Assembly (NCBI GenBank): GCA_947165465.1
Contig: CAMVAM010000007.1
Location: 1 to 55,692 of the forward strand
Reading direction: 5' to 3'
From: an uncultured Candidatus Saccharibacteria bacterium
GTDB lineage: Bacteria; Patescibacteriota; Saccharimonadia; Saccharimonadales; Saccharimonadaceae
DNA length: 55,692 bases
Position 1 is the stretch's first letter. Every line of letters starts with the position of its first letter. A program made the translations under genes and the position numbers. The notes beneath the pieces are model-generated. The model was not told the origin of the DNA, made no database searches, and worked only from the letters and a program-made list of their open reading frames with translations. Below are positions 23,112 to 36,962 of this stretch, piece by piece.

Positions 23112-23119
23112 AATTCTGC

Positions 23120-23220
23120 GGTCTCGTAGTATAGCGGGCAGACACATCGGGTTTTCATCCCGACAATGCGGGTTCGCTCGCCGAAGGCGAATAGCCGAAG
23201 CGAAGCGGAGGCTAACTCCC
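23120..23220 (+). pseudogene. Broken tRNA-Glu copy with a 38-nt insertion in the T-loop
   Basis: Bases 23120-23176 match the intact tRNA-Glu at 23234 (same acceptor 5' strand GGTCTCG, same anticodon arm with loop TTTTCAT), with a few changes and a 1-nt indel in the D-loop. After GGGTTCG the T-loop is interrupted by 38 nt (23177-23214) containing short inverted repeats such as CGCC GAA GGCG; the T-arm then resumes with ACTCCC (23215-23220). The expected acceptor 3' strand and CCA are replaced by unrelated sequence, so it cannot be a functional tRNA. Confidence 0.8.
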
Positions 23221-23346: not shown

Positions 23347-23353
23347 TCTTTAT

Positions 23354-23440
23354 GGTTGTCGGAGAGAGGCGAACCCGCAGGGTTCGCTCGCCGAAGGCGA
23401 ATAGCGAGCGCAAGCGAGCTAACTCCCGCCGGAATCACCA
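23354..23440 (+). repeat. Second 3'-end copy of tRNA-Glu with a related 35-nt T-loop insertion
   Basis: After a 3' flank similar to a tRNA 5' end (GGTTGTCGG), the sequence GGGTTCG (23380-23386) is followed by a 35-nt insert (23387-23421) that shares its first 19 nt with the insert at 23177, then ACTCCCGCCGGAATCACCA (23422-23440), which differs from the tRNA-Glu 3' end at two positions. A preceding GCGAACCC forms an 8-bp hairpin with GGGTTCGC over loop GCA. There is no anticodon arm. The insert itself folds: GCTCGC can pair with either of two GCGAGC copies. Confidence 0.75.
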
Positions 23441-33159: not shown

Positions 33160-34458
33160 TTACAAAGAAACGCGAATATCGCACACCATAACATCACGAT
33201 CGTAAAATGAACCTCGGTCATAGTAGACAATTACAGTTTCGTCATCTCTTTTAACGAGATACTTACCGTATTCATCTTTAACTATCGTAATGTCTTTCGG
33301 AAGCCGAACGTTAAAGAAGTAATAATTTGCTTCACCAAGCACCTTTATGCCAAGCTTCTTATAAATCTCAAACAAGTATTCTTCTTTGTCATACTTCTTC
33401 GAATACTCAGCCGGTACCGGACCTCCGTAAAAAACCGGCAAGCACGTCTTTCGGTCGGTGCTGTCGTGTATTGCCTTTGAACTTCTGTCAATCGCTTCGT
33501 CACTACTCATACCGCCCATAATACCAAGGAGTGTCGCCATACCGGCAAACATGGTATCCCCGTTATCGGGTGCAGGAACACTGTTTTTCTTGCGAAGATA
33601 TTCTTTGTAATGACGCTTAAAACCATATTCGTATTCACAGGAATCCTTACTGTATAAAGAGAAAAAGTATTCGATTCTCTCTTCATTCAGCGGTATAAGG
33701 TGTGCTCTGTTACCGGCAACAACCATAACAGCTTGCCAAACCTTCAGGATTCCGCGATCTTGGACAGGCACTTCCGTTTCAAGCGCCGCCTCAGTAAAAC
33801 ATTGAACGCTTTCGATGTCATCATTCAAAACATCAACGAGAAAATCGCTCGTTAGTATTTCTTCAGGAATGTCCTCCATCACAGGAGTATCATTGCTAGT
33901 GCAAAGTGCATGATAATACTCCTCCGTGCGATACTCGTCCGGGGTAATTTCAAGAAAACGGTTAGCCCCATTTCTTTTGGATGCAAAGCATCTTGCACCT
34001 AGGATATACATTTCCTGAGTCAGGAGCTCCGGCTTTCTTCTTTTTACAGAATAAAACCAGTCGTCACATTCGTCGCGTCGCTCGCAATATCTCATATTGA
34101 CAGCCCTGAGCATTGCGCACATTACCAGCTCTTCATCAATGATTGCTTCATCCATCCATTCAAAAATGTTTTTCTCAAAAAACAATGAATAGTAATTGAT
34201 CGCAATCAAATCCTTGAAGAATTGCTTATTAAACTGCTTTGGGTGAGACACAACATACGCAATGTAGTCGTCATGACAGCCAGTTAAGTGCTGTCTGAGA
34301 TACTCAAACCTTTCACTTTTCGGGATATTCGCTATGGATATATCAGACTTATAATACTTATACTCCGTGTTTCCCTGCGTGTACCCCCTCTCCTGAAACT
34401 GTCTGGCTAATCTTTTGTAAGCCGGCATCTCTGTAATTACGCTTGCTATGAAAGCCAA
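33160..34458 (-). CDS. Orphan protein of unknown function next to tRNA-Gly
   Basis: About 432 residues, no recognised family. The first 10 residues are hydrophobic (LAFIASVIT), the middle is helical and acidic with repeated aromatic/leucine patterns (FFKDLIAINYYSLFFEKNIF, FEWMDEAIIDEELVMCAML), suggesting an alpha-solenoid. A low-complexity Gly/Met stretch GMATLLGIMGGMSSDEA (about 310) precedes a C-terminal beta-rich domain (YFFNVRLPKDITIVKDEYGK, VIVYYDRGSFYDRD). Nine or so cysteines, unusual here. The most likely start is TTG at 34458, 5 nt from AGGAAGGTGA; a GTG three codons earlier overlaps that site. It is the only gene between the tRNA-Gly repeat array and a strong terminator, and looks like accessory cargo. 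Confidence 0.65.
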   Translation of the reverse strand: MAFIASVITEMPAYKRLARQFQERGYTQGNTEYKYYKSDISIANIPKSERFEYLRQHLTGCHDDYIAYVVSHPKQFNKQFFKDLIAINYYSLFFEKNIFEWMDEAIIDEELVMCAMLRAVNMRYCERRDECDDWFYSVKRRKPELLTQEMYILGARCFASKRNGANRFLEITPDEYRTEEYYHALCTSNDTPVMEDIPEEILTSDFLVDVLNDDIESVQCFTEAALETEVPVQDRGILKVWQAVMVVAGNRAHLIPLNEERIEYFFSLYSKDSCEYEYGFKRHYKEYLRKKNSVPAPDNGDTMFAGMATLLGIMGGMSSDEAIDRSSKAIHDSTDRKTCLPVFYGGPVPAEYSKKYDKEEYLFEIYKKLGIKVLGEANYYFFNVRLPKDITIVKDEYGKYLVKRDDETVIVYYDRGSFYDRDVMVCDIRVSL

Positions 34459-34560
34459 TACAATCACCTTCCTTTGTAAATAAAGAATTAATCTACCAGA
34501 TATACAATCTCCTTATAATAATAACATAAAAAGTTTAAAAAGTCAATATTATAGATACAC

Positions 34561-34657
34561 AAAAATGGTGCGAATGAAGAGACTCTAACTCTCATTGGCG
34601 CAGCCCGAGAGTTAGCGGACAATAAAAAATGGTGCGAATGAAGAGACTCTAACTCTC
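34561..34657 (-). repeat. Two extra copies of the tRNA-Gly 3' end, CRISPR-like spacing
   Basis: The 33 bp from tRNA-Gly position 49 (T-stem) through CCA plus five T's (34688-34720 in and behind the tRNA) recur exactly at 34625-34657 and 34561-34593. The stretches between are 31 bp (34594-34624) and 30 bp (34658-34687) and differ, but both contain CCGAGAGTT on the plus strand. Read on the tRNA strand, each extra copy is preceded by the inverted complement of the T-arm (AACTCTC before GAGAGTT), forming an 8-9 bp hairpin. In the copy next to the tRNA an outer stem GTGCGA/TCGCAC also closes, making a minihelix ending in CCA. Confidence 0.85.
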
Positions 34658-34692
34658 GCACCGGAGGTCCGAGAGTTCCTGTCGCACAAAAA

Positions 34693-34769
34693 TGGTGCGA
34701 ATGAAGAGACTCTAACTCTCGACCTCTTCCTTGGCAAGGAAGCGCTCTAAACAACTGAGCTACATTCGC
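34693..34769 (-). tRNA. tRNA-Gly (GCC) with non-canonical elbow
   Basis: Acceptor GCGAATG/CATTCGC, D-arm GCTC/GAGC, anticodon stem CTTCC/GGAAG around TTGCCAA (GCC), T-stem GAGAG/CTCTT, discriminator A, encoded CCA. The T-loop is TTAGAGT: position 56, almost always C, is A. The D-loop AGTTGTTTA has T at position 19 instead of G. The tertiary pair G19:C56 is thus replaced by U19:A56. The first T-stem pair is G-U. A TATAAT box lies 12 nt before the 5' end. Confidence 0.93.
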
Positions 34770-34820
34770 ACGTTTAGATAATTATAACACATAGATTTGA
34801 ATTTTTGAAGCATTTTTTCT

Positions 34821-36827: not shown

Positions 36828-36901
36828 GGTGCTTTGGCGGAGTGGTTACGCAGCGGTCTGCAAAACCGCGTACACCGGTTCAATTCCGGTAGGCACCTCC
36901 A
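36828..36901 (+). tRNA. tRNA-Cys (GCA)
   Basis: Acceptor GGTGCTT/AGGCACC (one G-U), D-arm GCG/CGC, anticodon stem GCGGT/ACCGC around CTGCAAA (GCA), T-arm CCGG TTCAATT CCGG, discriminator T, encoded CCA. A TATAAT box is at 36812-36817. Confidence 0.95.
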
Positions 36902-36914
36902 TTTTTCTTACGAA

Positions 36915-36962
36915 AATTCCGGGCCTTCCGCGTCCCAAGGGGCGGTAGGCACCTCCATTTTT
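36915..36962 (+). repeat. Extra copy of the tRNA-Cys 3' end with a structured insertion
   Basis: The 20 bp CGGTAGGCACCTCCATTTTT at the tRNA-Cys end (36887-36906) recurs exactly at 36943-36962, 56 bp downstream. Just before it, AATTCCGG (36915-36922), the T-arm 3' side, is also repeated, but about 21 nt of GC-rich, self-complementary sequence separates the two parts. It is thus a tRNA 3' end interrupted in the T-arm, as at tRNA-Glu. Confidence 0.8.

Follow-up and report, generated by a model that had tools for sequence, protein, structure and literature searches.

The repeat array behind the tRNA-Gly(GCC) gene in the 55,692-nt stretch of DNA analysed here (the window; contig 7 of a 785-kb draft Saccharibacteria genome that is 98% complete) consists, by its sequence, of two compact tandem units, each a partial copy of the adjacent tRNA's 3′ part with its T-arm either replaced by a capped hairpin or opened into one. 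The anatomy of the units, their occurrence at many tRNA genes, their strictly downstream and sense placement and the preservation of the hairpin architecture while its sequence changes are all observed directly. By analogy with the RtT RNA of E. coli, we favour, at a confidence evenly balanced between right and wrong, the interpretation that the units are RtT-like, tRNA-linked hairpin RNAs cut from read-through tRNA transcripts. What had been a puzzling one-off in E. coli, the tyrT repeats and RtT RNA, becomes a recurrent pattern, in which structured hairpins break partial tRNA copies at the T-loop, at many tRNA genes and in very small bacterial genomes. On this view the array would exemplify, in a tiny parasitic bacterium, a type of tRNA-attached RNA element that has received little attention.

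Anatomy of the array at tRNA-Gly(GCC)

The tRNA-Gly(GCC) gene, with an encoded CCA, lies on the minus strand at 34693–34769 (ARAGORN; Rfam tRNA, 70.1 bits), downstream of a promoter-like site recognized by consensus match (TTCAAA - 17 - TATAAT; 34781–34809, minus strand). Its CCA is followed immediately by TTTTT (34688–34692), as in many relatives. Two units follow on the same strand and share one plan: a hairpin made of antisense T-arm, capped tip and T-arm, then the tRNA tail to CCA, then TTTTT. Unit 1 (63 bp, 34625–34687) begins with GTGCGACAGG, continues with a hairpin at 34651–34677 (AACTCTCG, a bracketed middle GACCTCCGGTG, and CGAGAGTT) and reads AGAGTCTCTTCATTCGCACCA after the hairpin, before its TTTTT; its tail copy (34630–34658), which runs from position 48 to the CCA, comprises 29 nt identical to the tRNA 3′ end. 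Unit 2 (64 bp, 34561–34624) begins with TATTGTCCG, forms its hairpin at 34585–34615 (CTAACTCTCG, a bracketed middle GGCTGCGCCAA, and TGAGAGTTAG) and reads AGTCTCTTCATTCGCACCA before its TTTTT, with a tail copy of 28 nt identical to the tRNA 3′ end (34566–34593).

An earlier note on this DNA had described three exact 33-bp repeats with periods of 63–64 bp and spacers of 30–31 bp. On re-checking the sequence, the coordinates, periods and spacers were right: the exact copies lie at 34561–34593, 34625–34657 and 34688–34720, with start-to-start distances of 64 and 63 bp and spacers of 31 and 30 bp, and three exact 33-mers are far beyond chance. However, the extra copies number two, not three, because the copy at 34688–34720 is part of tRNA-Gly(GCC) itself together with its TTTTT. 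The identity of the repeat with the tRNA-Gly 3′ part plus TTTTT, which the note had also put forward, is confirmed by the sequence and by the ARAGORN and Rfam tRNA calls, and each spacer does contain the inverted complement of the start of the T-arm and makes a hairpin with it (AACTCTCG at 34670–34677 and CTAACTCTCG at 34606–34615). Structure prediction bore out the acceptor-like outer GTGCGA/TCGCAC stem that had been proposed for the unit next to the tRNA: unit 1 is predicted to fold at −24.2 kcal/mol (z −3.2) with the outer GUGCGA/UCGCAC stem present, and unit 2 as the hairpin only, at −16.2 kcal/mol (z −1.9), with the outer stem absent.

A consensus scan of the window array found no promoter or terminator hairpin belonging to the units. 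Comparable structures at further tRNA genes and in different assemblies (loci L109, L034–L059 and L109–L169) speak against an assembly error; the exact copy number of the units rests on the draft assembly and cannot be proven.

The hairpin persists while tail and spacer change

In a set of compact units assembled regardless of tip sequence, most follow the same order of tRNA-specific arm, 3-bp tip stem, triloop, bulge or mismatch, and arm. The tip stems vary yet pair (GGC/GCC, ACC/GGT, CTC/GAG, TTC/GAA, TAC/GTA, ATC/GAT and TTT/AAA). With tips transcribed by hand, 29 of 30 positions in 10 distinct 3-bp tip stems were paired, compared with 17.3 in shuffles (0 of 20,000), and a TNC triloop was present in 15 of 18 distinct tips and 26 of 29 three-base loops.

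Among 70 homologous tRNA-Gly loci in relatives, 19 carry units and 51 have none, and the unit is therefore dispensable. Where units occur behind tRNA-Gly in relatives, the acceptor part of the tail has been rewritten as GCGTTCTGCACCA, ACGTTCTGCACCA, GTATGTCGCACCA or GCGCTTCTACGCACCA with the hairpin intact, or, in L155 and the second unit of L035, lost with the hairpin again intact. Where the tRNA acceptor itself has changed (L141, L163 and L169), intact tail copies match the change. At the same tRNA, the closest relative, L109, in which a neighbour gene is 96% identical to that of the window, carries two units that differ from the window's in tips and spacers. On this evidence the units turn over fast while their structure stays. 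Within the hairpin arms we counted 10 G.U against 2 A.C mismatches, an excess that is suggestive of a sense RNA and that we do not take as proof because the detector favours G.U; conservation of the compact hairpins could act on the DNA and not on an RNA.

Tail copies behind many tRNA genes

The analysis covers tRNA neighbourhoods, the tRNA genes of the genome having been gathered with their flanks. Exact tail copies of at least 12 nt lie within 400 nt of 11 of the 37 tRNAs of the window's genome, about a third; the same 12-nt criterion gave 2 of 34 in G027, from the same genus, 7 of 33 in G094, from another family, and 0 of 4 among a few non-Saccharibacteria tRNAs. Copies ending exactly at CCA stand behind the Gly(gcc), Gly(tcc), Pro(cgg), Tyr, Asn (two genes) and Ala(cgc) tRNAs, and also behind Ser(cga), Ser(gct), Cys, Leu(caa) and Thr(tgt), with a longer form at Glu, Gln and others. 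A wider survey took in 304 tRNAs from the window's genome, G094, G027 and about 70 related loci. Every one of its 53 exact tail copies lay downstream, in sense orientation and less than 300 nt from the tRNA, with no upstream or antisense tail copy within 1.5 kb, a placement that is equally what tandem duplication gives. When the genome was searched with tRNA tails, the copies likewise lay next to tRNAs, the exceptions being one Glu copy 2.5 kb off, copies at contig ends and weak matches.

Within the window, a tail copy of the same kind as the array (CGGTAGGCACCTCCA plus TTTTT; 36943–36962, plus strand) follows tRNA-Cys (36828–36901). Behind tRNA-Glu(TTC), an RtT-like unit on the plus strand (23351–23440) comprises a partial antisense T-arm, GGGTTCG, a hairpin insert and ACTCCCGCCGGAATCACCA. 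Upstream of the same intact tRNA lies a truncated tRNA-Glu (23118–23220, plus strand; 27.2 bits, below the tRNA cut-off) with a related hairpin insert in its T-loop.

Many tRNA genes of the genus pass from an encoded CCA directly into TTTTT, without a separate terminator hairpin. On contig 1 of the genome (G000; L104:1180–3560), a tail-copy unit 3′ of tRNA-Glu(CTC) is split by 2.5 kb of cargo that encodes a retron-type reverse transcriptase (best PADLOC model RT_VI, 8.6e-65), a 129-aa CdiA_C-domain protein and a 61-aa open reading frame. We considered an active reverse-transcriptase-linked element as a general account and rejected it; that reading is not generalized because the unit at tRNA-Glu(CTC) is the sole one that bears cargo.

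Resemblance to the E. coli RtT RNA

The tyrT repeats and RtT RNA of E. coli have been known for decades. In E. coli K-12 tyrT and tyrV, each tRNA-Tyr is followed by GGGGAAGGAT (antisense), AAGGTTCGA (the start of the T-arm), hairpins and AATCCTTCCCCCACCACCA; this repeat is RttR (Rfam RtT, RF00391), whose annotation stops at the CCA of the tail copy. The release of RtT RNAs from tRNA operons, tyrT among them, and a tie to amino acid limitation have been reported (PMC4986893, citing Bosl and Kersten 1991).

The window array resembles RtT in having tandem units behind a tRNA, an antisense arm and, less clearly, a T-arm opened by a hairpin, and RtT/RttR units end with the last 19 nt of the tRNA at CCA just as the window units end in a tRNA tail and CCA. 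They differ in that RttR units are 178 bp long with a long multi-hairpin insert, whereas the window units are 63–64 bp with one compact hairpin formed by the antisense T-arm; the RtT order of parts is fuller in the Glu, Leu(CAA) and Gln units of the same genome. The RtT covariance model had no match in the window between 22000 and 42500 at E up to 1. Its top match in 60 genomes of the order was the unit behind tRNA-Gln of the window's own genome (E 1.3e-5), which at 35.2 bits is the best in that genome and under the gathering score of 45; the second-best match in the 60 genomes also abuts a tRNA. Because the RtT model finds nothing in the array, we file the array as alike in anatomy and not as an RtT member. 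Other weak Rfam matches, to Plastid-ycf2, RsmY and further families, were set aside as antisense-tRNA or chance.

By analogy with E. coli RtT, the unit RNAs would be small RNAs linked to tRNA transcription. RNA polymerase would read past the weak T-tract behind the tRNA and transcribe the units, each of which would contribute a structured RNA domain and the same CCA-plus-U end as the tRNA; with such an end, the read-through RNA would be ended or trimmed like the tRNA, and short hairpin RNAs of about 60 nt could be released. Processing at the CCA of the tail copy, which the earlier note had suggested, stays plausible by this analogy, given that E. coli RttR is annotated to end precisely at the CCA of its own tail copy.

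A covarying element in sister families

Behind many tRNAs of G094 stands a conserved element, R1, bounded by the GGT of a T-stem copy on one side and the C56 of a tail copy on the other. When six R1 copies were combined into a consensus, 22 of its 38 pairs proved to be doubly changed. Across 56 distinct sequences of this element of about 97 nt, 97.4% of cells were paired and 30 of 38 pairs had double changes, in an alignment that was fitted to the R1 model and so leans towards it; double changes totalled 374 compared with 95 in shuffles, and all shuffles and slides were far lower. R1 is a strongly covarying RNA family with no Rfam match, and is directly testable.

The R1 model matches 67 of 149 genomes of the order and none of 80 genomes of the window's genus, the window's own included; in a phylum-wide sample of 287 genomes, matches were confined to members of the order. 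R1 lies within 250 nt of a tRNA in 60 of 67 elements, a count affected by some loci having been fetched because of a tRNA, and on the same strand in 60 of 60. In the downstream type, the tRNA copy restarts at C56 and runs to CCA. The upstream type consists of tRNA positions 1–54, the element, positions 56–62, a promoter-like stretch and the intact tRNA; the truncated tRNA-Glu before tRNA-Glu(TTC) in the window is of this upstream type with another insert. Like the window units, R1 places RNA hairpins within the T-loop of an incomplete tRNA copy next to an intact tRNA, but it is a conserved, several-helix RNA of 97 nt where the window units are compact. Because R1 was not found in the window's genus, it supports our reading of the window units as an analogy of anatomy. 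The same holds for the link among the compact units, RtT and R1, for which common descent is not proven.

On a wider and more tentative proposal, to which we give rather less credence than to the RtT-like reading of the array, Saccharibacteria would harbour a whole class of structured RNAs that live as satellites beside intact tRNA genes, lodged in the T-loop of partial tRNA copies; the class would be compact in this genus and represented by R1 in sister families, with E. coli RtT as a distant look-alike. Such satellites may act at the RNA level as parasites or as regulators, with the tRNA gene as their host and the tRNA 3′ end taken over as their own. Literature searches returned no description of such units in Saccharibacteria. 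A guide-RNA idea, with a scaffold and a 20-nt tRNA tail, was rejected, as upstream-type R1 keeps only 7–9 nt of the tail.

R1 loci comprise L191, L196, L210, L211, L218 and L254–L304. In L259, L261 and L271, pseudo-tRNAs upstream of an intact tRNA are broken at more than one place (the anticodon/D region and the T-loop) by related structured inserts, and in L263 (880–1320), tandem 190-bp repeats of a promoter-like stretch, the tRNA-Arg 5′ part and R1 precede the intact tRNA-Arg.

Alternative origins and functions

The main rival, which we judge unlikely but still worth weighing, is that the units are left by a DNA or RNA element, mobile or repeatedly re-born, that inserts at the T-loop of tRNA genes and copies the 3′ part of the tRNA, thereby leaving an intact tRNA; any RNA would be a by-product. 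At many tRNAs, the copies start at the T-loop (T55/C56) or at the next CG upstream. The insert family GCCGAAGGC...ATAGC is common to Glu and Leu, and the tip GACCTNCGGTG recurs at Gly, Leu and Glu, with a longer version at Asn. The different tips and spacers of L109, the tail copies that track acceptor changes, the reverse transcriptase and CdiA_C protein within the split tRNA-Glu(CTC) unit and the presence of R1 at 1 to 27 places per genome all point the same way. Against this, a Phage_integrase search of the genome gave a single tyrosine recombinase match, a Xer-like 335-aa protein on another contig, and the strong structural conservation requires a constraint at the level of RNA or hairpin. 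Furthermore, R1 copies do not cluster by genome (identity 0.705 within and 0.712 between genomes), so that no recent bursts are seen, and we rejected recent within-genome R1 amplification. A mobile or re-born origin would account for the T-loop breakpoints, the shared inserts and the tRNA-Glu(CTC) cargo, and need not exclude an RNA role.

Less probable still is a mutational by-product, in which fold-back replication (template switching) at the palindromes of T-arm and terminator yields sense–antisense–sense copies that decay neutrally. Many units do read as tail, partial antisense tail, hairpin and tail; L155 keeps a long antisense arm, GAAGACTCTAACTCTCG, with a short sense arm; and TNC triloops are GNA triloops on the opposite strand, which are very stable in single-stranded DNA. 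However, the tips are not tRNA-derived, the format is fixed (3 bp, TNC, bulge), pairing survives sequence changes and the hairpins outlast the tails.

Scars of tRNA-specific integrases are a poor candidate. The copied block, about position 56 to 76 plus the terminator, is the part that such enzymes displace, and forms an identity from the T-loop to the 3′ end as in genomic-island att sites. The array shares this duplicated tRNA 3′ block with the tRNA-type attachment sites of integrative elements, but there is no element or island between tRNA and copies and no dedicated integrase in the genome, many tRNA species are hit at once, and the conserved hairpins would go unexplained. Integron attC and phage att sites were rejected, with no attC consensus by eye and no dedicated integrase.

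We give scant credence to the proposal of the earlier note that the units are CCA-ended decoys competing for glycyl-tRNA synthetase or the CCA enzyme: unit 1 does have an acceptor-like stem with CCA, but the acceptor 5′ strand is absent from unit 2 and from nearly all relatives, the acceptor tail is rewritten or lost in relatives with the hairpin intact, and the same kind of unit stands behind Pro, Tyr, Asn, Ala, Ser, Cys and other tRNAs. The likeness to CRISPR that the note had also drawn is limited to the 33-bp repeats and 30/31-bp spacers and can be dismissed with near certainty, the repeat being part of a tRNA, the spacers not unrelated but sharing an inverted T-arm complementary to the repeat, and a Cas1 search that was positive in 9 of 14 control genomes giving no match in this one.

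Such loci can mimic CRISPR arrays, truncated tRNAs or small open reading frames, which is a warning for annotation. Probably by chance, the arrays at window positions 34488–34754 (minus strand) and in L036 can be translated as open frames in which a RELESLHSHHF motif recurs; the E. coli tyrT repeats encode the Tpr peptide in a comparable place. Directly behind the array, the window encodes a 435-aa protein with no Pfam or PADLOC match (33160–34467, minus strand), and in G047 (L037) a relative of the gene next after it directly follows tRNA-Gly.
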